Source: Halarchaeum nitratireducens (GTDB lineage: Archaea; Halobacteriota; Halobacteria; Halobacteriales; Halobacteriaceae). Taken from it: a stretch of DNA of 64,000 nucleotides. A program made the translations under genes and the position numbers. Of the stretch, positions 3,137 to 19,861 are shown one piece after another (position 1 is the stretch's first letter; every line of letters starts with the position of its first letter). A model generated the notes under the pieces. The model saw only the letters and a program-made list of their open reading frames with translations, was not told the origin of the DNA and did not search any database. The stretch is taken from NCBI RefSeq assembly GCF_014647155.1, contig NZ_BMOQ01000002.1:124001-188000 (forward strand), given 5' to 3'.

Positions 3137-4048
3137 CTACAGGTACTCCTTCGCCGACTCGACGGCGGTGATGCCGTCGCCGACGCCGGCGCCGATCTCG
3201 AAGACGCTGTCTTGGCGGACGTCGCCCGCCGCGAAGATGCCCTCAACGCTGGACTCCATGTCCGGGCCGACGACGACCGCTCCCTCGTCGTCCAGCGCCA
3301 CGGCGCCGTCGAGGAACTCGGTGTTCGGCACGGAGCCGACGTTGACGTTCAGTCCCCCGATCTCGATCGTCTCCGGCTCGCCCTCGGCGTCGACGACCGC
3401 GAGGCCGTCCACGACGCCGTCGCTCCCCAGCACCTCCGTGACCGCGACGTCCGTCCGGACCGTGAGCCCGTCCGCCTCCGCCACCCGATCGCGGAACGCC
3501 GCGTCCGCCGACAGCTCCGCGTCGGGCGTGAGGAGGAGTACCTCCGAGGCGTAGTCCGTGAGGAAGACGGCGTCGATCGCCGCGTGGTTCCCGCCGCCGA
3601 CGACCGCGATGCGCTCGCCTCGGTAGAGCGGTCCGTCGCAGGTCGCACAGTGGAAGATCCCGCGTCCCTCGTACTCCTCCTCGCCGTCGACGCCGAGCCG
3701 TTCGGAGTGGCTCCCCGTCGCCACGATGACCGTCTCCGCCTCGTGGGCCTCCCCTCCCGCACGGACCACGTGGGGATCGTCACCGTCGCCGGGCTCGACG
3801 GCCTTCACGGCCTCCAGCTCCACGTCGACCTCGTACTGCTCGACCTGTTCGACGAGTCGCGCGCGCAGGTCGGTGCCTGCGACGCCGCCCGGGAACCCCG
3901 GGAAGGACTCGACTTCGTGTCGATTCACCAGTTCGCCGCCGATCGACTCCGCCTCGAAGAACAGCGTGTCGAGCGCGGCCCGGCCGGCGTACGTGCCCGC
4001 GGCCAACCCGGCGGGTCCCGTCCCGATGATGAGAACGTCGTGTACCAT
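3137..4048 (-). CDS. Thioredoxin reductase-like flavoprotein (CATC)
   Basis: A 303-residue protein with an FAD-binding GTGPAG at 9-14, a second nucleotide-binding GGGNHA near 151-156, and a redox-active CATC at residues 134-137. The late FAD motif GIFAAGDVR is present. This is the layout of low-molecular-weight thioredoxin reductases (about 300-330 aa), which pass electrons from NAD(P)H to a disulfide partner. The usual GxGxxA of the second Rossmann fold reads GGGNHA, so the nucleotide donor is uncertain. I chose the ATG at 4048 because the N-terminal extension from 4297 is Arg/Pro-rich shadow sequence. It is transcribed divergently from the CGSC unit at 4159-6982 and may be its reductase (inference). 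Confidence 0.88.
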   Translation of the reverse strand: MVHDVLIIGTGPAGLAAGTYAGRAALDTLFFEAESIGGELVNRHEVESFPGFPGGVAGTDLRARLVEQVEQYEVDVELEAVKAVEPGDGDDPHVVRAGGEAHEAETVIVATGSHSERLGVDGEEEYEGRGIFHCATCDGPLYRGERIAVVGGGNHAAIDAVFLTDYASEVLLLTPDAELSADAAFRDRVAEADGLTVRTDVAVTEVLGSDGVVDGLAVVDAEGEPETIEIGGLNVNVGSVPNTEFLDGAVALDDEGAVVVGPDMESSVEGIFAAGDVRQDSVFEIGAGVGDGITAVESAKEYL

Positions 4049-4158
4049 TGTCGCCACGCGCAGGTCCGCGAGAGAGCGCAAAAAAGCTTTCTCCCGCTCG
4101 GATTCGCCCGCGTCGGCACAAAGACGAAGGCGACCGACGGAGTAGCCGGCACTGACAC

Positions 4159-5241
4159 ATGGTCCGAGACGACGCCGACGACGAGTCGATAGCGGCGGTT
4201 TCGCGCACCCTCTACCGGCAGGGGATGACGGACGGCCTCCCGGTGATTCCGCCGACGGAGGAGCGGGTCGAGGAGATGCTGCGCGGCACGGATACACCGG
4301 ACGACGCGGTCATCGGTCGCCTCGGGAACGACGACAACCCGATCACGGTCGCGGGGCTGGCGTCGAACGCCGTGATGGCGGGCTGTCTGCCGACCCATAT
4401 GCCGGTGCTGGAGGCCGGCGTCCGGGCGCTGGCGGACCCCGACTCGAACTCGATCCAGTTCTCCGTCAGCACGGGTGGGTGGGCCTACCAGTGGATCGTC
4501 AACGGCCCCGTCCGCGGCGACGTCGGGATCGCCGGCGGGACGGGCGCGTACGGGCCGAACTACCGCGCGAACCGGGCCATCGCCCGGGCGCTCGGGATCG
4601 CCTACCGGAACACCGCGAAGATCCACCCCGGCGAGAAGGACATGGGCGTGATGGGCAACCCATTCAAGTTCAGCCTCCTCCTCGGGGAGCACGAGGAGGC
4701 CAGCCCGTGGGAGCCCTACCACGTCACGGCCGGCTACGACGAGGGGGACAGCACGATCTCGCTCTCCGGACCGAACAGCTTCGTCCAGTGGGAGCCGGCG
4801 GCGGCCGAGGCGGAAGCCGTCCTCCGCGGGATGCTCGCCAACACGCCGCCGGCGATGGTCAGCGGCGAGCAGCAGGGCGGCGATTTCGATCAGACGATCA
4901 CGTACGTCCTCTGTCCCGCGAGCATCGACCTCCTCGCGGACGCCGGGCTCTCGAAGCGCGACGTCAAGCGGTACGTCGCGGACAACTCCGCGATTCCAGT
5001 TGATGAGTTCCAGAAGGGGGTCCTCTGGGAGGGTGCGCTCGAGGGCTACCACGGTCGCGTCGAGAACGCGCAGGTGCCACAGATCAGGGGTCCCGAGTAC
5101 GTTCGCGTCGTCGCTGGCGGCGGGCGGACCGGCCGGTGCGACGCCGTCATCGGGCCGTCGATCGGAGGGCCGGTGACGGAGCCGATCGACTACCCCGACG
5201 GCTGGTCGGCGCTCGTCGCCGAGTACGGGCCCACCGAATGA
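4159..5241 (+). CDS. Conserved 360-aa protein (A) of the UGSC-associated unit
   Basis: I recognise the conserved blocks but cannot name a biochemical function. Visible blocks are DGLPVIPPTEERVEEML near residues 25-41, NAVMAGCLP around Cys76, a WAYQWIVNGPVR block, ARALGIAYRNTAK with PGEKDMGVMGNPFKF, and PWEPYHV with GYDEGDSTISLSGP. There is no signal peptide or membrane segment. Cys76 is the only Cys clearly conserved with the paralogue at 5900-6982, of the same 360-residue length. It lies 70 bases before the CGSC protein and is read in the same direction. It could be a partner subunit or enzyme for the CGSC protein (inference). Confidence 0.8.
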   Translation: MVRDDADDESIAAVSRTLYRQGMTDGLPVIPPTEERVEEMLRGTDTPDDAVIGRLGNDDNPITVAGLASNAVMAGCLPTHMPVLEAGVRALADPDSNSIQFSVSTGGWAYQWIVNGPVRGDVGIAGGTGAYGPNYRANRAIARALGIAYRNTAKIHPGEKDMGVMGNPFKFSLLLGEHEEASPWEPYHVTAGYDEGDSTISLSGPNSFVQWEPAAAEAEAVLRGMLANTPPAMVSGEQQGGDFDQTITYVLCPASIDLLADAGLSKRDVKRYVADNSAIPVDEFQKGVLWEGALEGYHGRVENAQVPQIRGPEYVRVVAGGGRTGRCDAVIGPSIGGPVTEPIDYPDGWSALVAEYGPTE

Positions 5242-5278
5242 CCCCACAGCACGCATACATCATTATCTGTCACCAAAA

Positions 5279-5288
5279 ACTATATTGT
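5279..5288 (+). promoter_or_regulatory. TATA-like box of the CGSC protein gene
   Basis: An AT-rich element (ACTATATTGT) is centred about 27 bases upstream of the ATG at 5311, consistent with leaderless transcription. The CGSC gene and its downstream partner therefore probably have their own promoter in addition to any readthrough from 4159. Confidence 0.45.
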
Positions 5289-5296
5289 CAGTGCGT

Positions 5297-5312
5297 ATAG
5301 TACCCATACTAT
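5297..5312. promoter_or_regulatory. Inverted repeat overlapping the CGSC gene start
   Basis: ATAGTA-CCCA-TACTAT is a perfect inverted repeat with 6-bp arms and a 4-bp spacer. It lies between the TATA-like box and the start codon. A second overlapping inverted repeat, ACCCAT-ACT-ATGGGT (5302-5316), includes the ATG. The position suggests an operator. Confidence 0.4.
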
Positions 5313-5880
5313 GGGTCTCGTAACCCCCTCCTCGACGGGCAACGACACGGACCAGAAGCCACTCACCCCGCGCGTCGACTCGCTTGATGGGACGCACATC
5401 GGGCTGTACGACAACGGGAAGCCGGCGGCCGAACCCCTCTTGACCGCGGTCCAGGAGATGCTCGCCGAGCGCTATCCGGACGCGACGTTCGAGTGGTACC
5501 ACGTCGAGCACCTCAATCAGATCAAGAACGACGAGGAGCAGGCGGCGGTCACCGAGTGGGCCGAGGACGTCGACGTCGCCATCGGAGCCATCGGCGACTG
5601 CGGCTCGTGCACGAAGTTCCTCACGTGGGGGATCGAGTTCATCGAGGACGCCGGAACGCCGGGCGTCGGACTCATCGACGAGGGGTTCGAGCTCGACTAT
5701 CAGTCCAACGCCGTCGAGCGCGGCCGTCCGCTGCGCTACAAGAAGACCCCGGTCCGATGCGAGACGACCGACCTCGAGCGCGTCCGCGACGAGGTCACCG
5801 ACGACGTCCTCGACGGTATCATCGACGAGCTCACCCGCCCCCTGAACGACAAAGAGCGCGCCGACCCGGTCGCGCAGTAA
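5311..5880 (+). CDS. UGSC-type protein with Cys-Gly-Ser-Cys motif
   Basis: A 189-residue protein with the sequence IGDCGSCT; Cys97 and Cys100 form CGSC. I relate it to the family catalogued as UGSC (seleno)proteins, in which the first Cys may be selenocysteine; here it is encoded as Cys (TGC). The N-terminal 20 residues are a polar tail. The core starts near DGTHIGLYDNGKP, and a third Cys lies near the C-terminus. There is no signal peptide. The spacing suggests a cytoplasmic dithiol redox site, possibly reduced by the divergent thioredoxin-reductase-like protein (inference). The gene is followed after 19 bases by the second 360-aa paralogue. Reaction unknown. Confidence 0.7.
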   Translation: MGLVTPSSTGNDTDQKPLTPRVDSLDGTHIGLYDNGKPAAEPLLTAVQEMLAERYPDATFEWYHVEHLNQIKNDEEQAAVTEWAEDVDVAIGAIGDCGSCTKFLTWGIEFIEDAGTPGVGLIDEGFELDYQSNAVERGRPLRYKKTPVRCETTDLERVRDEVTDDVLDGIIDELTRPLNDKERADPVAQ

Positions 5881-5899
5881 TCCCCGCCCCGAGATATTC

Positions 5900-6982
5900 A
5901 TGTCCCAGCACTCACCAGACGAGCAGTCGCTAGAGGAGATCAATCAGTCGCTGTACGAGGACGGCCTGACCGACGGCCTCCCGGTGATCCCGCCGACCGA
6001 CGAGCGGGTCGAGGAGATGCTTCGCGGCACCGACAAACCCCGCGACCACGTCCTCGGCGACCTCGGCAACAACGAGAACGCGATCACGGTCGAGCAGCTG
6101 GCGTCGAACGCCGTGATGGCGGGCTGTCTACCGACCTACATGCCGGTGCTGGAGGCCGGTATCCGGGCGCTGGCGGACCCCGACTCGAACTCGATTCAGT
6201 TCTCCGTCAGCACGGGATCGTGGGCCTACCAATGGATCGTCAACGGTCCCGTTCGTGAGGCGCTCGGCATCGAGACGAGCTCCGGGGCGTTCGGGCCGAG
6301 TTTCCACGCGAACCAGACGATCGCGCGGGCGCTCGGGATCGCCTACCGGAACACCGCGAAGATCTATCCCGGCGAGAAGGACATGGGCGTGATGGGCAAC
6401 CCCTTCAAGTTCAGCTTCCTCGCCGGCGAGAACCAGGACGCCAGTCCGTGGGAGCCCTACCACGTCACGAACGGCTACGACGAGGGGGACAGCACGATCT
6501 CGCTCTCCGGGCCGAACGGCTGGGTCCAGTGGTTCCCCGACGAGAACAACGCGGAGAACGTCTTGCGAAACATGATCGAGAACACGCCGACCTCGATGCG
6601 CGCGAGCTCCGGCGAGGACCTCAACGCGACGATCACGCACTTCTTCAACCCGTACAACGCGGAGGAGCTGGAGAAGGAGGACCTGAGCAAGCAGGAGGTC
6701 AAGGAGTACCTCGTCGAGAACTCCTACCGGACGCTCGACGGCTACGAGGAACCCCGCGGCGAGACGGGGAAGGTCCCGCCACGACAGATCCAGCAGTACG
6801 CCGATGCGGACGCCATCAACCTCATCGCCGTCGGCGGCCCCGGACGGGTGAACGCCATCGCCGGCACCTCGATCGGCGGTCCCGTCACGAAGAAGATCGA
6901 GTTCCCGGACAACTGGGACGACCTCCGAGAGGAGTACGCCATCGAGGAGAACTGGGTTCCGACCGAGGGCTTCTACGACTGA
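5900..6982 (+). CDS. Conserved 360-aa protein (B), paralogue of 4159-5241
   Basis: Same length as protein A and colinear over its whole length, including DGLPVIPPTDERVEEML, NAVMAGCLP with the only conserved Cys (Cys76), WAYQWIVNGPVR, ARALGIAYRNTAK, PGEKDMGVMGNPFKF and GYDEGDSTISLSGP. It diverges in residues 100-120 and over the last third, and lacks the two further Cys residues of protein A. It begins 19 bases after the CGSC gene and is surely co-transcribed with it. The duplication around a CGSC protein suggests a heteromeric complex or two substrate-specific partners (inference). I cannot assign a reaction. Confidence 0.8.
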   Translation: MSQHSPDEQSLEEINQSLYEDGLTDGLPVIPPTDERVEEMLRGTDKPRDHVLGDLGNNENAITVEQLASNAVMAGCLPTYMPVLEAGIRALADPDSNSIQFSVSTGSWAYQWIVNGPVREALGIETSSGAFGPSFHANQTIARALGIAYRNTAKIYPGEKDMGVMGNPFKFSFLAGENQDASPWEPYHVTNGYDEGDSTISLSGPNGWVQWFPDENNAENVLRNMIENTPTSMRASSGEDLNATITHFFNPYNAEELEKEDLSKQEVKEYLVENSYRTLDGYEEPRGETGKVPPRQIQQYADADAINLIAVGGPGRVNAIAGTSIGGPVTKKIEFPDNWDDLREEYAIEENWVPTEGFYD

Positions 6983-7061
6983 GCGTCACTCGGACCGCCC
7001 GTCGGTTCCCGCCGGGACCGCGACCAAACCGTTTTGAGCGCACGGAGCGTCCGTCCCGAGC

Positions 7062-7313
7062 ATGCGCGCCACGACGGTCGAGTGTCCGCGGTGTGAGGCG
7101 GCCCACGAGTTCTTCTTGCAGGACGAGGAGCGACACCTCCGGCAGTGTCCGGACTGCGACGGCTGGTTCGTCTTCGCCGAGGCGGAGTCCGGCCTCAAAC
7201 GGACGGCGCTCGACGACCCCGCGGCGTGCCCGGTCGCGGGGTGCGAAGAGCGCGTCGACGCGGACGATCTACCGGCGCACGTCGTCGACACGCACGACGG
7301 CTCGCTCGACTGA
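7062..7313 (+). CDS. Small double zinc-finger protein
   Basis: An 83-residue protein. Two CxxC pairs (CPRC at residue 8 onward, CPDC near 31) form a zinc-ribbon-like site. A second site, C-x4-C ... H-x4-H, occurs in the CPVAGCEERV ... HVVDTH segment, like a C2H2 finger. Such small haloarchaeal zinc-finger proteins are common; some act in regulation or RNA/DNA binding, but no specific role is visible here. An AT-rich element near 7028-7038 lies about 27 bases before the ATG, suggesting a leaderless single-gene transcript. It is convergent with the alcohol dehydrogenase gene, with 11 bases between stops. Confidence 0.75.
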   Translation: MRATTVECPRCEAAHEFFLQDEERHLRQCPDCDGWFVFAEAESGLKRTALDDPAACPVAGCEERVDADDLPAHVVDTHDGSLD

Positions 7314-7324
7314 ACCGGACCCGA

Positions 7325-8356
7325 TCACGGGCAGACGAGGATCTTTCGCTCCTCGCTCTCCCCGCCGAGCAGCGTCTCGAACCCCCGATCGACGACGTCT
7401 TCGAGGTCGATCCGCGACGTGACGTAGTCGTCGGCGTCGAGCTCTCCGCTGGCGAGCTGGCGGAGCACGACGTCGTACTCCTTGGAGACGCGCGGGCCGA
7501 GCTGATGGGAGGTCGACCCGGCGACCGTGCGCTGGTGGCGGACGAGCTTCTGCGGTTCGAACGCGGCTTCGCCGCCGAAGACGCCGATGACCGTGGTGTG
7601 ACCACCGGCGCGCGTGGCGCTGACGGCCTGATCGAGGGTGGCCTCGTGGCCGACGGCCTCGAACGCGACGTCGGCGCCCGTCCCGGTCTTCTCGTGGATC
7701 CGCTCCACGGGGTCCTCCTCTTCGGGATCGATGAGCACGTCAGCGCCGAAGTCGGCGGCGACGTCGCGGCGCGACGCCTGCGGCTCTGAGACGTAGACGG
7801 GGCCGGCGCCCGCGGAGGCGGCGAACCGCACCGCACCGAGTCCGATCGGCCCCGCGCCGACGACGACGGCGCTGTCACCGACACCGACGGGCGACTGACG
7901 GACGGCGTGGAGGCCGACGCTGATCGGCTGGGCGATGGCGGCGTCGGCGGGCGAGACCCCATCGGGGAGCACGAGCGCGTTGTCGGCGCGCTCGACGACC
8001 CTCTCCGCGTAGCCGCCCGGTCGCGCGGACGTCGCGTCGAGGTCCCGACAGAGGTTGTACATCGCGCTCTCGCAACACCAACAGTCCATGCAGGGCGTGT
8101 GCGGGCTGAGGACGACGTCGGTACCGACCTCGATGTCGACGCCGGCGCCGGTTTCGAGGACGGTGCCGCCGATCTCGTGACCCAGCGTCGTCGGATAGTC
8201 GGCGTCGCCGTGGAGGCCGTCCGTGTAGAAGTGGAGGTCGGATCCACAGATCCCACACGCGGCGACGTCCACGAGTACCTCCCCTTCGCCCGGGTTCGGC
8301 TCGTCGACGTCCTCGACGCGCATGTCTTCCGGTCCGTAGAAGAGTGCGGCTCTCAT
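7325..8356 (-). CDS. Zinc-dependent alcohol dehydrogenase (threonine/sorbitol dehydrogenase-like)
   Basis: A 343-residue medium-chain dehydrogenase. Catalytic zinc ligands are visible as Cys37 (CGICGSD) and the GHE motif at 59-61. The structural zinc lobe is present (CMDCWCC ... C at 89-103). The NAD-binding motif is VVGAGPIGLGA. Length and motifs fit polyol/threonine dehydrogenase-type enzymes; the substrate is not identifiable. A TATA-like box at 8381-8390 lies about 29 bases upstream of the ATG, overlapped by an inverted repeat at 8372-8385. The IclR regulator lies directly upstream and is read in the same direction, so it may control this gene (inference). Confidence 0.93.
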   Translation of the reverse strand: MRAALFYGPEDMRVEDVDEPNPGEGEVLVDVAACGICGSDLHFYTDGLHGDADYPTTLGHEIGGTVLETGAGVDIEVGTDVVLSPHTPCMDCWCCESAMYNLCRDLDATSARPGGYAERVVERADNALVLPDGVSPADAAIAQPISVGLHAVRQSPVGVGDSAVVVGAGPIGLGAVRFAASAGAGPVYVSEPQASRRDVAADFGADVLIDPEEEDPVERIHEKTGTGADVAFEAVGHEATLDQAVSATRAGGHTTVIGVFGGEAAFEPQKLVRHQRTVAGSTSHQLGPRVSKEYDVVLRQLASGELDADDYVTSRIDLEDVVDRGFETLLGGESEERKILVCP

Positions 8357-11184: not shown

Positions 11185-12972
11185 ATGAACGCGGACACAC
11201 GGACGACGGACGGAATCGACCGACGAACGTACTTGGGCGCGCTGGGGGCGGCCGGCGCGGCGGGCCTCGCCGGGTGTAGCGGCGGCGGCGAGAGCGCGAG
11301 CGACGAAGACCTCGGGGAGCGCGTGCCGACGATGCCCGGCGCGATCATCGCCGGAACGGCGGGCTCGTCCGACTTAGAGCGGGCGATGCAGCACGTCCAG
11401 ACGCAGAGCGAGGAGGTGCTCGGGGTGCCGATGGAACTCGTCAACCGCGAGATCACGACGTACTGGACGGAGGCGTACAACGACCAGCGCACGTTCAACT
11501 TCACCGTCTCGATCTCGCCGTCGTTCCCGAGTGTCCTCGACCCGGACAACCTCCTCTACTCCTACCACATCAAGAACGCGGGGGCGAACGGGCGCCCGAA
11601 CGGCATCAACTACGCCGACTGTGACTTCTCGCGGAAGGTGGACGCTCAACGCACCGCGACGAACCGGGAGCAACGGCGATCGCACGTCACGGACGCCCTC
11701 TCGGCCGCTTCGGCCGACGTCACTCCGATCACGCTGTGCACGTCGATCACGGGCGGCGCCTATCGGACCGACCAGCTCGACCCCGGCGACGCCGGATCGG
11801 CCGGTGCGAGCCTCCGCAATCCGGAGTTCCTCTGGAACACGACGGCGACCGGCGAGGCGGACGGCATCGTCTCGAACATCACGCCCGCGAACATCGCCAG
11901 CGCGACCTACATGTCGAGCCAGCCCGCGACGCCGTGGGTGGGGACGGTGTACATGCCGCTCCTCTACCGGGACAGGAACTACGAGCTCGCGGCGGGCGCC
12001 GCGAAGGACTGGACCGTCGAGAACAGCTATCAGACCTTCACGTTCGACATCCGCGAGGGGATGACCTTCCACGACGGCAGTCCGCTCACCGCGGAGGACG
12101 CCAAGTGGACCCTCGAATTCCTCGACGACAACACGGATAGCTTCTCCGCGATCAACGAGTACCCCTACGAGTCGATCACCGCCGTGGACGACACGACGCT
12201 GACGGTCGAGATGTCGCGGCCCGCACCGTCGTGGCTGACGGCGTTCGTCCCCATCTGGTCGGGCGTCCTGCCGAAGGACGTCTGGCGGGCCGCCGGCGCC
12301 GAGGAGAACCCGACGGACCCCGACTTCGAGGGGCTCGTCGGCTCGGGCCCCTACCGCGTGGTCCAGTACCAGCCGCGCCAGATCCTCGTTTTGGAGCCTG
12401 ACGAGGACCACTACATCGACGCGGGCGCGGACCTGACGATCCGCGGCTATCAGGGGCGCCAAAGCGCGTTCCGCGCCTTCCAGACTGGTGGCCTCAACCT
12501 CCTGATCAACATCACGAACGACACGTGGTCGCAGATCGAGGACGGAATGGCGGAGTCGGCGACGGTCGTCGCCGGCGACGCGTTCACGTCTTTCGAACTG
12601 CGCGCGCAACACTCGTTCGCGCCGTCGATGTTCCGGGAGTTCCGCCTCGCCGTCTCGCAAGCGCTCGACCGAGCGCTGATAAACGGCATGTTCACCCGCG
12701 GGGAGGGGAGCCCGGAGCTGTACGCGTCGTTCGTCGGGAAGAACCACCCGTGGCGCCCGGAGAGCGACGACGCGCTGACGAAGATCGCGGACTCGCCGCG
12801 ACCGAACGAAGAGGCGGCGAAGCAGGTGTTGCGCGACGCGGGGTGGGGGTGGGACGGGGACGGGCGACTTCACTACCCGCCCGAGAAGGACCTCACCCCC
12901 CGCTGGCCCGAGGGATCGACTCCCTGCGAGGAACCCGATAGCTTCCCCTGCGTCCCCGATATCTGCGAGTGA
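11185..12972 (+). CDS. ABC importer substrate-binding lipoprotein, family 5, lobes in permuted order (copy 1)
   Basis: A 595-residue exported lipoprotein. DRRTYLGALG at 12-21 is a Tat signal and LAGC places the lipidated Cys at residue 31. It belongs to the SBP_bac_5 (DppA/OppA/NikA) family by the REGMTFHDGSPLTAEDA block near 290-306, the GSGPYRV block and the RLAVSQALDRALI block. The segment order is unusual. Residues 62-200 (SEEVLGVPMELV, LDPDNLLYSYH, NYADCDFSRKVD, SADVTPITL) match what normally forms the C-terminal end of this fold, and the normal N-lobe begins only after about residue 222. The protein ends at DAGWGWDGDGRLHYPP plus a short Cys-containing tail. It binds an unknown solute outside the membrane. 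Confidence 0.88.
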   Translation: MNADTRTTDGIDRRTYLGALGAAGAAGLAGCSGGGESASDEDLGERVPTMPGAIIAGTAGSSDLERAMQHVQTQSEEVLGVPMELVNREITTYWTEAYNDQRTFNFTVSISPSFPSVLDPDNLLYSYHIKNAGANGRPNGINYADCDFSRKVDAQRTATNREQRRSHVTDALSAASADVTPITLCTSITGGAYRTDQLDPGDAGSAGASLRNPEFLWNTTATGEADGIVSNITPANIASATYMSSQPATPWVGTVYMPLLYRDRNYELAAGAAKDWTVENSYQTFTFDIREGMTFHDGSPLTAEDAKWTLEFLDDNTDSFSAINEYPYESITAVDDTTLTVEMSRPAPSWLTAFVPIWSGVLPKDVWRAAGAEENPTDPDFEGLVGSGPYRVVQYQPRQILVLEPDEDHYIDAGADLTIRGYQGRQSAFRAFQTGGLNLLINITNDTWSQIEDGMAESATVVAGDAFTSFELRAQHSFAPSMFREFRLAVSQALDRALINGMFTRGEGSPELYASFVGKNHPWRPESDDALTKIADSPRPNEEAAKQVLRDAGWGWDGDGRLHYPPEKDLTPRWPEGSTPCEEPDSFPCVPDICE

Positions 12973-13048
12973 CCGCGGTTCGGTCGGGCTCACCCGGCCG
13001 AAACGACCCGCTCGCGGGTCGAGAACGGCGAACCGACCGGTACTATCG

Positions 13049-13060
13049 GCATATTTATTA
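13049..13060 (+). promoter_or_regulatory. TATA-like element before second binding-protein gene
   Basis: GCATATTTATTA lies about 105 bases upstream of the ATG at 13160, implying a leader of about 80 bases. The second binding protein may therefore be transcribed separately from the first. Confidence 0.35.
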
Positions 13061-13159
13061 TGTTCGATGATGAGCGACTTGTGTGTGGATGGTCGTCACG
13101 GTTCTGACGGCCCGGCGAGCGGATCGGGACGTGGAGCCGACGACACACGGGATTCAATC

Positions 13160-14950
13160 ATGACTGACGATTCACCGGACTCTGATGGGATCGATCGACG
13201 AACGTACTTGGGCGCGCTGGGGGCGGCCGGCGCGGCGGGCCTCGCCGGATGTAGCGGCGGCGGTGGGGGCGGATCGAGCGGCGAGGACTTGGGCGAGCGG
13301 GTGCCGGCACTGACGGTGGCGTCGCTGGGCGGCGTCGCGGGTGCGTCCGCCATCGAGCAGGCGAACCAGCACGTCGCCACGCAGATCAGCGAGGTGTTAG
13401 GCGTCCCCGCGGAGGTGACGATCAAGGAACTGACGACGCTGTGGAACGAGGCGTACAGCGATTCCCGCACGTTCAGCTTCCACCTCGATCTCTCCCCGCA
13501 GTTCCCCAGTAACCTCGACCCGGACAACCTCCTCTACTCCTACCACATCAAGAACGCGGGAGCGAACGGCAATCCGAACGTCATCAACTACGCCGACTGC
13601 GACTTCTCGCAGAAACTCGACGAACAGCGTACCGCCTCGTCGACGGAGAAGCGTCGGGAGTACGTCACGGACGCCCTCTCGACCGCCTCGGAAGACGTCA
13701 TGCCCACGACCCTCTGTACGAACACGGGCTCGTCGATCTACCGCAACGATCAGCTGAACGCGCAGGACGTCGGGCAGGCCGGACCGGTCGATCGAAACCC
13801 GGAGTTCCTCTGGAACACCGAGCCGATCAACGGGGCGAACGCGATGAAGTCGAACGTGACGCCGGGGAACATCCCGAGCGTCGTCTACATGAACAACCGT
13901 CCGTCGACGCCGTGGGTGGGGACGGTGTACATGCCGCTCCTCTACCGGGACAGGAACTACGAGCTCGCGGCGGGCGCCGCGAAGGACTGGACCGTCGAGA
14001 ACAGCTATCAGACCTTCACGTTCGACATCCGCGAGGGGATGACCTTCCACGACGGCAGTCTACTCACCGCGGAGGACGCCAAGTGGACCCTCGACTTCCT
14101 CAACGACAACGCCGACACCTTCGCCGTCATCTCCGAGTACCCCTACGAGTCGGTGACGGCGGTGGACGACACGACGCTGACGGTCGAGATGTCGCGGCCC
14201 GCACCGTCGTGGCTGACGGCGTTCGTCCCCATCTGGTCGGGCGTCCTGCCGAAGGACGTCTGGCGGGCCGCCGGCGCCGAGGAGGATCCGATGAACGTCG
14301 AGTTCGACCGGATCATCGGTTCGGGGCCCTATCAGGTCCGGGACTTTCAGACCCGTCAGATCCTCGCCATGGAACCCTACGAGGACCACTACATCGACGT
14401 CACCGGCGACCTCATCTTCCGGGGCTATTCCGACCGGCAGAGCGCCCGCCGCGCGCTCGAATCGGGCAGTCTCAACATCCTCCTCAACAGCACGAACGAC
14501 ACGAACGAGCAGATCAAGAACGCCCTCGGCGATAAAGCGACCGTCGTGACGTCGGACACGTTCGTGTCGTACGAACTGCGCGCGCAACACTCGTTCGCGC
14601 CGTCGATGTTCCGGGAGTTCCGCCTCGCCGTCTCGCAGACGCTCAACCGCACTCGACTGAACGCGTACTTCAACGGCGGGACGGGTACCCCCGAGCTGCG
14701 TTCGTCGTTCGCGGGAAAGAATCACCCGTGGCGCCCGGAGAGCGACGACGCGCTGACGAAGATCGCGGACTCGCCGCAGCCCAACACGGAGGCGGCGAAG
14801 CAGGTGTTGCGCGACGCGGGGTGGGGGTGGGACGGGGACGGGCGACTCCACTACCCGCCGGAGAAGGACCTCACTCCCCGCTGGCCCGAGGGATCGACCC
14901 CCTGCGAGGAACCCGATAGTTTCCCCTGCGTCCCCGATATCTGCGGCTGA
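13160..14950 (+). CDS. ABC importer substrate-binding lipoprotein, family 5, permuted (copy 2)
   Basis: A 596-residue paralogue of the preceding gene. It has the same Tat lipoprotein signal (DRRTYLGALG, Cys31) and the same swapped lobe order. C-lobe-like blocks occur at about 64-200 (SEVLGVPAEV, LDPDNLLYSYH, NYADCDFSQKLD), then the N-lobe with REGMTFHDG and the terminal DAGWGWDGDGRLHYPP. I chose the ATG at 13160 (MTDDSPDSDG), which gives an N-terminus parallel to copy 1; the upstream ATG at 13067 adds a Gly/Asp-rich extension before the signal. Long stretches are identical to copy 1 at the DNA level while others differ strongly. Two binding proteins for one transporter suggest two related ligands (inference). 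Confidence 0.87.
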   Translation: MTDDSPDSDGIDRRTYLGALGAAGAAGLAGCSGGGGGGSSGEDLGERVPALTVASLGGVAGASAIEQANQHVATQISEVLGVPAEVTIKELTTLWNEAYSDSRTFSFHLDLSPQFPSNLDPDNLLYSYHIKNAGANGNPNVINYADCDFSQKLDEQRTASSTEKRREYVTDALSTASEDVMPTTLCTNTGSSIYRNDQLNAQDVGQAGPVDRNPEFLWNTEPINGANAMKSNVTPGNIPSVVYMNNRPSTPWVGTVYMPLLYRDRNYELAAGAAKDWTVENSYQTFTFDIREGMTFHDGSLLTAEDAKWTLDFLNDNADTFAVISEYPYESVTAVDDTTLTVEMSRPAPSWLTAFVPIWSGVLPKDVWRAAGAEEDPMNVEFDRIIGSGPYQVRDFQTRQILAMEPYEDHYIDVTGDLIFRGYSDRQSARRALESGSLNILLNSTNDTNEQIKNALGDKATVVTSDTFVSYELRAQHSFAPSMFREFRLAVSQTLNRTRLNAYFNGGTGTPELRSSFAGKNHPWRPESDDALTKIADSPQPNTEAAKQVLRDAGWGWDGDGRLHYPPEKDLTPRWPEGSTPCEEPDSFPCVPDICG

Positions 14951-15041: not shown

Positions 15042-15716
15042 ATGGGAACTCATACCGATCCCGCGTCCCTCTACGAGCGACTCCGCGACGACGGCCTCTT
15101 CGAAGAGTCGGGCGAGGAAGTGCGACTGAGCGACGCGTTCTCGACGGCCCGCGAGCGCGAGCGAGCGGCGGTCGCAGCGCTCGATGAGGACGCACTCGCG
15201 GACCTCCGCGAGGCGTACGTCGACGGCGCCGACGTCGCGGCGACCGATGTTGACGAGCGGACGCTCGCGGACGCGGTGGCGGTCCACGAGACGTGCGAGA
15301 GCGTCGACCGAGCCACCAGCCTCCACGTCGCGCGCTCGCTCACGCGCGACGGACTCGACGGTTCCGATCCGCACGTCCCGGACGGATTCGTATCGCTCTC
15401 CGGTGACGAGATCGGACGGTTCCTCGACGCGCACGCGGCGGCCGTCGTCTACTGCTGGCGGGAGGAATGCGACCCGTGCGACGCGGTGCGTGCGGATCTC
15501 GAATCGCTGCGAGGCGAGGGACTGTTTCCCGACGAGATCGGACTCGGCGCCGTCTACGGGCCGGACAACGTCGACGAGCTCCGCGAGTCCTACGATGTCG
15601 GCGCGGCGCCGACCGTCCTCTTCTGCGCCGGTGACGCCGTCGCGTCGCGCTTCGTTGGAAACCCGGGTCGTGGCGCGCTCCGTGCGGAGACCGAACTCCT
15701 GATCGACGGGGTGTAA
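15042..15716 (+). CDS. Thioredoxin-fold protein with CDPC motif
   Basis: A 224-residue cytoplasmic protein. Residues 1-110 are an acidic helical region without a recognised domain. Residues 115-224 look like a thioredoxin fold: AAVVYCWREECDPCDAV with Cys143 and Cys146 as CxxC, followed by YDVGAAPTVLFCAGD, where the cis-Pro loop normally lies. It sits between the binding proteins and permeases of an ABC importer but has its own TATA-like box (15009-15018), about 27 bases before the ATG, so it may be a separate unit. It could be a thiol oxidoreductase. Any link with transport is only by position. Confidence 0.7.
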   Translation: MGTHTDPASLYERLRDDGLFEESGEEVRLSDAFSTARERERAAVAALDEDALADLREAYVDGADVAATDVDERTLADAVAVHETCESVDRATSLHVARSLTRDGLDGSDPHVPDGFVSLSGDEIGRFLDAHAAAVVYCWREECDPCDAVRADLESLRGEGLFPDEIGLGAVYGPDNVDELRESYDVGAAPTVLFCAGDAVASRFVGNPGRGALRAETELLIDGV

Positions 15717-15831: not shown

Positions 15832-16776
15832 ATGCAGATTAACGATTCGAGCGGGTCGACCGACTCCGGCTTGCTCGGTGCGCTCCGTCCGGGGCGGCTC
15901 CGCGATCACTACCTGTTCCGGAACCTCCGCTCGTCGCTGAGGCTCTACCTCTCGGATCGGCTCACCGTCGTGTTCCTCGCGGGGTTCGTCCTCGTCCTCC
16001 TGGCGGCCGTGTTCGGTCCGATGATCGCCCCGTATCCGCCCGATAAGGTGTTCATCACCAGCAGCGGGGAGATACTCAAGCTCGCCCACCCGTCCGGGGA
16101 GCACCTGTTGGGGACCACGGCGCGCGGACAGGACGTGTTCAGCAGGCTGTTGATCGGCGCCCGGCCGACGTTGTTCACCGGGCTCCTCGGCGGGTTTCTG
16201 GTCGTCCTGATCGGCGTCACCATCGGCGTCTCCGCCGGCTACTACGGCGGTCGCGTGGACGACGTCCTCATGCGCCTGACGGACTTCGTCTTCGGCATCC
16301 CGCTCATCCCGACGGCGATCGTGCTCGCGGCGTACTTCGGCGTCGGCACGTGGAGCACGATCCTCGTCATCGGCTGTCTGCTGTGGCGGAACAACGCCCG
16401 CGTCTTCCGCTCGCAGGTCCTCCAGATCCGCGAGCGCGAACACGTCCGGGCCGCGCAGATGCTCGGCGCGAGCGACCGATACGTCATCACGCGCCACATC
16501 CTCCCGAACCTCGGCGGGATGATCGTCCTGTTCTTCGCGCTCGGGACCGGCCTCACCATCATCATCAGCGCCTCGCTGTCGTTCCTCGGCTTCGCCGACC
16601 TGTCGCTTCCCTCCTGGGGGCTCATGCTGCGTAACGCGTACAACTCGGGCTACATGGCGAGCGCTTGGTGGTGGTCGCTCACCTCCGGCTTCGCCATCTC
16701 CCTCACCGTGCTGTGCATCTTCATGCTCGGGCGCGGATACGAGCGCGTGCACGAAACCAACGTCTCGGAGTTCTGA
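15832..16776 (+). CDS. ABC importer permease, DppC-type
   Basis: A 314-residue integral membrane protein. The N-terminal anchor helix (RLTVVFLAGFVLVLLAAVFG) is followed by a periplasmic-type segment (PYPPDKVF ... EHLLGTTARGQDVFSR) that is typical of DppC/OppC permeases. A core of about five helices includes the EAA loop region REREHVRAAQMLGASDRYVITRHILPN. It forms the channel with the DppB-type permease at 18878. The ATPase gene starts 8 bases downstream. The 5' region has a direct repeat ATGAGGGTT (15811 and 15822) with several ATGs; 15832 is the in-frame one. Confidence 0.92.
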   Translation: MQINDSSGSTDSGLLGALRPGRLRDHYLFRNLRSSLRLYLSDRLTVVFLAGFVLVLLAAVFGPMIAPYPPDKVFITSSGEILKLAHPSGEHLLGTTARGQDVFSRLLIGARPTLFTGLLGGFLVVLIGVTIGVSAGYYGGRVDDVLMRLTDFVFGIPLIPTAIVLAAYFGVGTWSTILVIGCLLWRNNARVFRSQVLQIREREHVRAAQMLGASDRYVITRHILPNLGGMIVLFFALGTGLTIIISASLSFLGFADLSLPSWGLMLRNAYNSGYMASAWWWSLTSGFAISLTVLCIFMLGRGYERVHETNVSEF

Positions 16777-16784
16777 TCGACACC

Positions 16785-18881
16785 ATGGCACCCCTACTCG
16801 AAATCGACGATCTCGACATCACGTACCGCACGAGTTCCGGCGACCTCAGGGCCGTTACGGACGCCTCCATCTCCATCGACGCCAACGAGTACTACGGCCT
16901 CGTCGGGGAGAGCGGCTGCGGGAAGAGCACGCTCGCCGGCGCCGTCACCAACTCCCTCGATCAGAACGGCGACATCACGGGCGGCACGGTGACGTACCGC
17001 GGCGAGGAGATCCAGGACTACTCGGAGGAGGAGTACAACGACGAGATCCGGTGGAAGGAGATCGCGGTCATCCCACAGTCGGCGATGAACAGCCTCAATC
17101 CCCTCTCGCGCATCAGCGAGCAGGCGATCGAGGTCGCCGAGGCCCACACGGACTGGTCCGAGGAGAAGGCGGTCGACAAGCTCGAAGAGCTCTTCGGCGT
17201 CGTCGGACTGCCGGCGTCGCGCGTTCACGACTACCCTCACCAGTTCTCGGGCGGGATGAAACAGCGCGCCATCATCGCTTTCTCCCTCCTGCTCGATCCC
17301 TCCATGATCATCGCGGACGAGCCGACGACGGCGCTCGACGTGATCATGCAGGACCAGTTCCTCAAACACCTCGACGAGCTCCGCGAGATCCGCGACTTCA
17401 GCCTCCTCTTCATCACGCACGACATCGCGGTCGTCTTCGAGATGTGCGATTCGATGGCCGTGATGCACGGCGGGCAGGTCGCCGAACGCGGCGACACGAC
17501 GGCGCTCTTCGACGACCCCCACCACCCCTACACGCTCCTGTTACAGCGCGCGTTCCCCGACATCCGGTATCCGAACAGGAAACTCGAAGGCATAGACGGG
17601 ACGCCGCCGGCGCTCGAGAACGAAGTGGACTACTGTACGTTCGCGGATCGCTGCCCGTGGGCCGAACCCGAGTGCCGCGAACGCGCGCCCCCGACCGAGG
17701 TCGTCCCCGGCGACGCCGAACACGCCTCCGCCTGCGTTCGTAGCGACGAGGTGGCGACGCTCGCGGCGCGCGACCTCGAGGACGTCGACGACGACCACGG
17801 GGAGCCCGCCGGTGCGGACGCCGGGGCCGACCGCGGAGGCGACGAGTCGATCCTGTCACTTCGGGGTCTCAACAAGCACTTCAGCCAGTCGACGAACGTG
17901 CTCGATACGATTCGGGCCAGCGTCTTCGGCGGCGAGCAGGACGCGGTCCGCGCCGTCGACGGCGTCGACCTCGAACTGAAGGAGAACCAGATCCAGGGCG
18001 TCATCGGCGAGAGCGGCTGCGGCAAGAGCACGCTCCTCCAGACGCTCATGGGGAAGTACGAGCCGACCGAGGGCGAGATCGTCTTCGACGGCACGCCGGT
18101 CTCGTCGTTCGATAAGGCGGACTGGAAGGAGTACAGACGCCGCGTCCAGATCATCCTTCAGGACCCGTTTAACACGCTCAATCCGCACTTCTCCGTCCGG
18201 GAGACGCTACTGGAGCCACTTCGGATACACGACATGGAGCGCAGCGAAGAACGGGTGCTCGACGTGCTCGAGCAGGTCCGGCTGACGCCCGCCGAGGAGT
18301 ACATCGACCGCAACGAGTCGCAGCTCTCGGGCGGCGAGAAACAGCGCGTCTCGATCGCGCGCGCGCTGATCCTCGAACCCGACGTCATCCTCGCCGACGA
18401 GCCGGTGTCGATGCTCGACGTCTCGACGCAGGCGTCGGTCCTCGACATGCTCAACGAACTGACCGACGAGTACGGCGTCTCGATGCTGTACATCTCCCAC
18501 GACCTCTCGACCGTCTCGTACGTCTGCGATCGGGTGAACGTCATGTACCTCGGACGGCTCGTGGAGAGCGCGCCGACGATGGACCTCCTCACCGATCCCA
18601 AACACCCGTACACGCGCTCGCTCCTGCAGGCGATCCCCGTCCCGGACCCCCACCACGAACGGGAGTGGGCGGAGCTCCCGGGAACGCCCGGCGACGCCTC
18701 CGACCTCGGAACGGGCTGTCGGTTCCGCGATCGCTGTCCGGACCGGATGGATGTCTGCGAGCGGATGCCCCGTCAGGCGGACGTCGGCGACGATCACCGG
18801 GCGGCCTGCCACCTCCACTACGAGCACGGCTCGGGCGACGACCCCGCGCCGACGGCCGCGACCGACGGAGGTGAACGATGA
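16785..18881 (+). CDS. ABC importer double ATPase (DppD-DppF fusion)
   Basis: A 698-residue protein with two complete ABC modules. Module 1 has Walker A GESGCGKST at 41-49, signature SGGMKQR and Walker B IIADEPTTALDV, then an oligopeptide-type C-terminal extension with Cys residues (CTFADRCPWAEPEC). Module 2 has Walker A GESGCGKST at about 408, signature SGGEKQR, Walker B ILADEPVSMLDV and a second Cys-containing extension (GCRFRDRCPDRMDVC). These extensions often bind an Fe-S cluster or metal in peptide transporters. Bacterial systems usually use two separate proteins; here both are fused. It overlaps the next permease by 4 bases (ATGA), showing translational coupling. Confidence 0.95.
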   Translation: MAPLLEIDDLDITYRTSSGDLRAVTDASISIDANEYYGLVGESGCGKSTLAGAVTNSLDQNGDITGGTVTYRGEEIQDYSEEEYNDEIRWKEIAVIPQSAMNSLNPLSRISEQAIEVAEAHTDWSEEKAVDKLEELFGVVGLPASRVHDYPHQFSGGMKQRAIIAFSLLLDPSMIIADEPTTALDVIMQDQFLKHLDELREIRDFSLLFITHDIAVVFEMCDSMAVMHGGQVAERGDTTALFDDPHHPYTLLLQRAFPDIRYPNRKLEGIDGTPPALENEVDYCTFADRCPWAEPECRERAPPTEVVPGDAEHASACVRSDEVATLAARDLEDVDDDHGEPAGADAGADRGGDESILSLRGLNKHFSQSTNVLDTIRASVFGGEQDAVRAVDGVDLELKENQIQGVIGESGCGKSTLLQTLMGKYEPTEGEIVFDGTPVSSFDKADWKEYRRRVQIILQDPFNTLNPHFSVRETLLEPLRIHDMERSEERVLDVLEQVRLTPAEEYIDRNESQLSGGEKQRVSIARALILEPDVILADEPVSMLDVSTQASVLDMLNELTDEYGVSMLYISHDLSTVSYVCDRVNVMYLGRLVESAPTMDLLTDPKHPYTRSLLQAIPVPDPHHEREWAELPGTPGDASDLGTGCRFRDRCPDRMDVCERMPRQADVGDDHRAACHLHYEHGSGDDPAPTAATDGGER

Positions 18882-19861
18882 GCCAACTCTACTACTACGC
18901 GCGCCGAACGGTGGTCTCGATCCTGCTCATCTTCGCCATCGCGACGTTCCTGTTCTTCGCCTTTCGGTTCATGCCGGGCGACTACGCGACGCTCCTGTTA
19001 CAGCAGGGCGCCTCACCGGAGCAGGTGGCGAAGGTGCGACAGATGTGGGGGCTCGATCAACCGCTGTACGTTCAGTACTTCAAGTGGCTCAGCAACATGG
19101 CTCAGGGGAACGCCGGAATGTCACGGCAGTTCAACGAGCCGGTCCTCGAGGTCGTCCTGCCGGCGCTGCGCAACTCCCTCATCGTCGCGCTCCCCGGCGT
19201 GTTGGTCGCGTTCGTCCTCGGGTCGCTCTACGGTGCCCTGATGGGGAGTCGGCCGAACTCGCTGCTGGAGAAGTACGGCATCATCCCGCCGAACATCGTC
19301 GGCACCACGCCGGACTTCTTCATCGGCATCCTGCTCCTCACCGTGTTCTCGGCGTGGCTGGGGTGGTTCCCCTCCGGGAGCATCGCCTCCGTCGACACGC
19401 TGACCAGCACCTCCGGATGGGGGATCTACCTCACGTCGGACTTCTGGTACCACTACACGCTCCCGTTCCTCACGGTCGTGATCAAGTACATGTACTACCC
19501 GACGCTGGTGATGCGCGGGAGCGTCGTCGAGGTTCGGAACCAGGAGTTCGCCACCTACCAGCGGCTCCTCGGGCTCGGCAAGTGGCGGCGCTTCCGTCAC
19601 ATCATGAAGCACGCGTCGCTTCCCGTCGTCACCGTCCTCCCCGCCGTGACCGCGACCTCGATCAGCGGGCTCGTGCTCATCGAGATAGTCTTCAACTGGC
19701 CGGGCATCGGGCAGCTGCTCCTGACGTCCGTGTTCGCGCGTGACACGCCAGTCATCCAGTTCATGTTCCTGCTCATCGCGGCCTGGATCGTCATCGGGAA
19801 CTTCATCGTGGACATCGCGTACACGATCATCGACCCCCGGATCACGATCGAGGGCGAATAA
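18878..19861 (+). CDS. ABC importer permease, DppB-type
   Basis: A 327-residue membrane protein. It has an N-terminal helix (RRTVVSILLIFAIATFLFFAF) with the typical RFMPGD that follows, then a soluble segment with the family-typical LGLDQPLYVQYFKWL-like sequence (here MWGLDQPLYVQYFKWL), then about five helices with an EAA-type loop (YQRLLGLGKWRRFRHIMKHASLP). It pairs with the DppC-type permease. The start codon overlaps the ATPase stop by 4 bases. It is the last gene of the importer; after it about 180 bases without a gene separate it from a convergent GMC oxidoreductase. Confidence 0.92.
   Translation: MSQLYYYARRTVVSILLIFAIATFLFFAFRFMPGDYATLLLQQGASPEQVAKVRQMWGLDQPLYVQYFKWLSNMAQGNAGMSRQFNEPVLEVVLPALRNSLIVALPGVLVAFVLGSLYGALMGSRPNSLLEKYGIIPPNIVGTTPDFFIGILLLTVFSAWLGWFPSGSIASVDTLTSTSGWGIYLTSDFWYHYTLPFLTVVIKYMYYPTLVMRGSVVEVRNQEFATYQRLLGLGKWRRFRHIMKHASLPVVTVLPAVTATSISGLVLIEIVFNWPGIGQLLLTSVFARDTPVIQFMFLLIAAWIVIGNFIVDIAYTIIDPRITIEGE

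Follow-up and report, generated by a model that had tools for sequence, protein, structure and literature searches.

Tandem binding proteins of a haloarchaeal Dpp/Opp-type ABC importer with a very probable natural circular permutation

The window analysed here is a 64,000-nucleotide stretch of Halarchaeum nitratireducens DNA, in which lie two tandem genes for solute-binding proteins of family 5, members of which are among the commonest and best studied receptors of ABC import. The proteins, referred to here as SBP1 (595 residues, 11185–12972) and SBP2 (627 residues, 13067–14950, with the likely true start at the ATG at 13160), are paralogues with 73% identity, both encoded on the forward strand in uninterrupted frames. 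Each carries an export signal with a Tat lipobox, recognized by motif only. Following the two genes are those for a thioredoxin-like protein, a DppC-type permease, a fused double ATPase and a DppB-type permease (Table 1); by its gene content, the operon corresponds to an importer of the dipeptide/oligopeptide type. Permeases and oligo_HPY ATPases are also found near most relatives of the window type.

Table 1 Features of the SBP1/SBP2 operon (window coordinates)
Feature	Position	Strand	Basis
SBP1 Tat-type lipoprotein signal (RRTYL...LAGC), putative lipid anchor Cys31	11185..11277	+	Sequence; inferred from motif
SBP1 residues 64–184, equivalent to the C-terminal block of ordinary family-5 proteins (profile 368–482)	11374..11736	+	Profile match
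SBP1 Cys146 (NYADC), kept or lost jointly with C-terminal Cys589	11620..11622	+	Alignment of relatives
SBP1 residues 185–241, linker from ancestral C terminus to ancestral N terminus	11737..11907	+	Unmatched between two profile matches; alignment
SBP1 residues 242–555, equivalent to N-lobe and centre (profile 48–352), Pfam SBP_bac_5	11908..12849	+	Profile, Pfam
SBP1 new C terminus: conserved G.LHYP strand and Cys-bearing tail (Cys589 at 12949–12951)	12850..12969	+	Alignment
SBP2, tandem paralogue, same permuted order	13067..14950	+	Sequence, profile
SBP2 residues 97–215, displaced C-terminal block (profile 369–481)	13355..13711	+	Profile match
SBP2 residues 275–587, N-lobe and centre (profile 49–352)	13889..14827	+	Profile match
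Thioredoxin-like protein with a CDPC motif, lacking an obvious signal peptide; 12 other permuted loci have a homologue nearby	15042..15716	+	Pfam sub-threshold
DppC/OppC-type permease (BPD_transp_1 and OppC_N)	15832..16776	+	Pfam
Fused double ABC ATPase, Dpp/Opp type (2x ABC_tran, 2x oligo_HPY)	16785..18881	+	
DppB/OppB-type permease	18878..19861	+	

Other neighbours in the window encode an IclR regulator, a CoA-ligase-like protein, alcohol and aldehyde dehydrogenases, and GMC oxidoreductases, and several of these genes are kept beside near relatives of SBP1. They point to a small organic compound degraded by oxidation, not necessarily a peptide, as the candidate substrate. Also present, at 4159–5241 and 5900–6982, are two paralogous 360-residue proteins (LADPDSNSIQFSVSTG...), for which Pfam gave nothing at E ≤ 0.01; both are conserved beside the SBP operon in Halarchaeum rubridurum (L010), and at least one homologue occurs at L074. 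The gene for the CDPC thioredoxin-like protein shares its operon with SBP1, which carries the Cys146/Cys589 pair.

Both parts of a family-5 protein, the N-lobe with the centre and the C-terminal block, are found in SBP1 and SBP2. The canonical order, in which the C-terminal block comes last, is absent from both proteins by profile, the C-terminal ~115–120 profile positions preceding the N-lobe and centre. The profile, which has 515 positions and was searched unfiltered, was built from 25 family-5 binding proteins of haloarchaea, all of them colinear. In SBP1 the match to positions 368–482 (iE 1.1e-10) comes before that to positions 48–352 (iE 2.3e-36), and in SBP2 the match to 369–481 (iE 1e-11) comes before that to 49–352 (iE 2e-35), at the residues given in Table 1; held-out colinear controls each gave a single end-to-end match. 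Taken alone, the N-terminal segment of SBP1 scores 41 bits, the maximum among 1000 composition shuffles being 4 bits, and rejoining of residues 216–566 and 61–215 in the normal order yields one colinear match of 173 bits over positions 48–482. The Pfam family SBP_bac_5 (PF00496) scores 149 and 127 bits for the two proteins (curated cut-off of 32.4), and its best stretch in SBP1 covers positions 4–286 of 368, stopping there.

An earlier note on this DNA had proposed that both proteins are circularly permuted, and the profile order, the in silico rejoining and the relatives described below all bear this out; the segment at residues 62–200, far from resembling the normal N-lobe or aligning colinearly, matches the end of the profile. 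The order given in that note stands, and its boundaries need only slight revision: the displaced block ends near residue 184, a linker occupies residues 185–241 and ~30 further residues (WPEGSTPCEEPDSFPCVPDIC) come after LHYPP in SBP1. We conclude, with a probability of roughly 0.93, that SBP1 and SBP2 are solute-binding lipoproteins of family 5 (cluster C) that belong to a Dpp/Opp-type ABC importer and have undergone circular permutation in nature.

The permuted order defines a large group across the Halobacteria and some Alphaproteobacteria, so that the recurrence sought among other Halobacteria is found widely and beyond them. In total, the searches yielded 122 distinct permuted proteins, encoded in genomes and plasmids of haloarchaea and on plasmids of Alphaproteobacteria, the family-5 ORFs at the collected loci being classed by profile order. 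A class-wide draw of 392 haloarchaeal genomes was searched with the N-terminal segment of SBP1, a query biased towards window-like proteins, and 98 genomes gave matches; 76 of these have a confirmed permuted protein at loci that were read, 5 have colinear proteins only and ~17 were left unread. Less biased is a PF00496 search of 21 haloarchaeal relatives, in which nearly all matches were read: by hand count from the listed loci, 17 of ~89 family-5 proteins, about a fifth of this sample, have a permuted chain (11 genomes, 5 undetermined).

Bacterial sampling was of plasmids, and permuted proteins are present on those of six alphaproteobacterial genera, with the order tested by profile for Nitratireductor, Microvirga, Roseomonas, Ketogulonicigenium and Maritalea, and deduced for Neorhizobium from colinear tblastn coverage at ~73% identity. 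Three aligned bacterial members have the same cut and end in AGY...LHYP, as against AGW...LHYP in the haloarchaeal proteins. The bacterial permuted genes adjoin permease and ATPase genes, and their products have plain signal peptides without a lipobox. Viral contigs searched for permuted relatives contained only colinear proteins. Misassembly, already thought unlikely in the earlier note, is excluded because the order recurs in other genomes, at over 100 independent loci; for an assembly or gene-model artefact more generally we found no supporting point, and, with the order recurring across many assemblies, single-contig genomes, complete plasmids, different laboratories and bacteria, we give that explanation practically no credence.

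Most of the permuted proteins, including the bacterial ones, belong to one clade with one cut site, located between the AGW/AGY motif helix and the block that normally comes next after it. In a 71-row tree of the rejoined sequences, of a quick type and with long branches, the permuted label requires 4 changes compared with 21 in shuffles. Once five long or unstable rows are removed, a branch with support of 99 separates 42 permuted rows from the rest. Placed elsewhere is L131 (L131:4209–6101, single-contig genome G018), which is nested in a colinear clade with support of 100 and is cut before the AGY helix, the main clade being cut after it. An arrangement that unites every permuted protein in one clade is rejected (AU p = 3.7e-11), and a single permuted clade without L131, into which L091 may fall, is not (p = 0.32). 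Because the one-clade arrangement is rejected and L131 lies inside a colinear clade with a different cut, at least two separate permutations are indicated by tree and cut site, that of L131 being independent and young.

The swapped order could instead be chimeric, the C-terminal piece of one family-5 gene having come to lie before a truncated, different family-5 gene, so that the protein has two parents. The displaced block of the main clade has diverged too far for a shared parent of both halves to be demonstrated, and the same doubt has been raised for the permuted protein TpMglB-2 (PMC4990184). Both halves of L131, however, are closest to a single colinear relative, L067 (48% and 45% identity, in swapped order), which supports true permutation as a process at work in these archaea but is no direct evidence on the main clade; a chimeric origin of the window proteins is considered unlikely. 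True permutation probably proceeded by tandem fusion of a gene and subsequent loss of the outer parts. L210:614–5101 (genome G026, reverse strand), which encodes two complete family-5 binding proteins in one frame behind a single signal peptide, is a natural two-copy fusion of the kind expected as an intermediate by duplication models, showing that the tandem-fusion intermediate exists in this archaeal order.

In DppA, the original N and C termini are both located in domain I. The cut region corresponds to about DppA residue 340 by PDB profile match, a region that we take to be in domain III, that is, lobe 2. As the original termini are close together in the same domain, the chains of SBP1 and SBP2 would be expected to fold as the usual two-lobed fly-trap, with the new chain ends placed in lobe 2. 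Such a placement would shift the lipid or membrane anchor from lobe 1 to lobe 2, and the protein would still capture its ligand and dock to the DppB/DppC-like permeases. Most likely, SBP1 and SBP2 function as binding proteins for Dpp/Opp-type importers, the new chain ends lying in lobe 2. The idea that the permutation serves lipid anchoring is weakened by the bacterial members, which are not lipoproteins; as these lack a lipobox, re-siting of the anchor cannot explain the permutation in general.

AlphaFold models of SBP1 have low confidence, the alignment being too shallow (pLDDT of 37.8 with 9 sequences; pLDDT of 48.6 and pTM of 0.42 with 19), and a Foldseek search with the pLDDT 48.6 model gave top matches that all belong to family 5, albeit with a TM-score of only ~0.37, which is uninformative on topology. 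Among solved structures, ordinary family-5 proteins are matched by a profile of the permuted set in two swapped pieces (in PDB 5isu, for example, residues 29–337, then 349–476). None of the best 60 PDB matches to this profile is permuted, the N-lobe part beginning near the chain start in each; the N-terminal segment alone retrieved nothing credible from the PDB, and NCBIfam gave no match spanning the permuted order.

The new C-terminal tail of SBP1 is probably fastened to its N-terminal segment by a Cys146–Cys589 disulfide, since the two cysteines are present or lost together. The Cys146 column has C in 42 of 48 window-type proteins and T or A in the remaining 6, and the tail cysteine is absent from exactly these six and from one further sequence that is truncated at the end of its locus. 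The six cysteine-less sequences may represent one co-loss event, not six. Neither cysteine is present in the three aligned bacterial members.

In a second permuted branch, in which the permuted gene is often present as two tandem copies, 38 loci (L090, L106, L107 at 3456–8028, L109–L117, L121, L122, L124, L126–L130, L132–L135, L137–L141, L143, L146–L149, L152, L207, L208 and L211) have the gene for a PAP2-superfamily membrane protein directly 3' of the permuted gene, and just a few of them have detected Dpp/Opp-type genes in the vicinity. The pairing constitutes a conserved unit of binding protein and phosphatase. Permuted proteins acting as ligand sensors or receptors, and not as importer subunits, would be consistent with this arrangement, and such a role may hold for the PAP2-linked branch. 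For SBP1 and SBP2 it is very improbable: the window copies, like most of their close relatives, sit next to DppB, DppC and ATPase genes of their own, which gives the window system the appearance of a complete importer. Two family-5 genes in the collection, L128 (genome G004 C2:516641–517651) and L191 (genome G029 C1:410258–411382), are possibly pseudogenes, each having one in-frame stop within its PF00496 match (TGA and TAG, respectively).

Taken more broadly, permutation may be a recurrent and tolerated route in cluster C, with an ancient haloarchaeal and alphaproteobacterial class, at least one separate young case, cuts that fall within one small part of lobe 2, a disulfide staple added later and one branch shifted from transport to partnership with a PAP2 membrane phosphatase; we regard the odds on this wider scheme as even. 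Annotation masks the permutation, as public records read plainly 'ABC transporter substrate-binding protein' and the best Pfam stretch covers one piece. The permuted set offers a natural experiment on the parts played by lobe order, chain connectivity and anchor position in docking and opening, and as a natural permutant series it is useful for biosensor design. The young L131 together with the fused L210 provides a direct route to studying how the permutation originates.

SBP1 and SBP2 share with family 5 (cluster C, PF00496, including DppA, OppA, NikA and AppA) homology over profile positions 48–482, in two pieces, and a location beside Dpp/Opp-type permeases and oligo_HPY ATPases. They differ in that the C-terminal block comes before the N-lobe and the cut that creates the new termini follows the AGW/AGY motif. 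The window-type haloarchaeal branch has, unlike ordinary family-5 proteins, an extra Cys-bearing C-terminal tail. No permuted family-5 binding protein is described in the open-access literature searched, a report elsewhere being possible. The earlier note's belief that none had been described therefore holds for that literature and for the PDB matches, but natural permutation is already known in cluster B. Its known example is TpMglB-2 (Tp0684) of Treponema pallidum, a naturally permuted, two-lobed glucose/galactose-binding ABC lipoprotein, for which the class 'Type Ic / Cluster Bc' was proposed and tethering was suggested by its authors as the reason for the permutation (PMC4990184). The window proteins have no match to a sugar-binding-protein family in Pfam, even at E up to 10. 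TpMglB-2 is the nearest precedent and is unrelated to the SBP1/SBP2 family: both are ABC binding lipoproteins with a naturally permuted chain, two-lobed in TpMglB-2 and expected to be so in the window proteins, but TpMglB-2 belongs to another sequence family and has reordered strands in its N-lobe, whereas the cut in the window proteins would lie in lobe 2.
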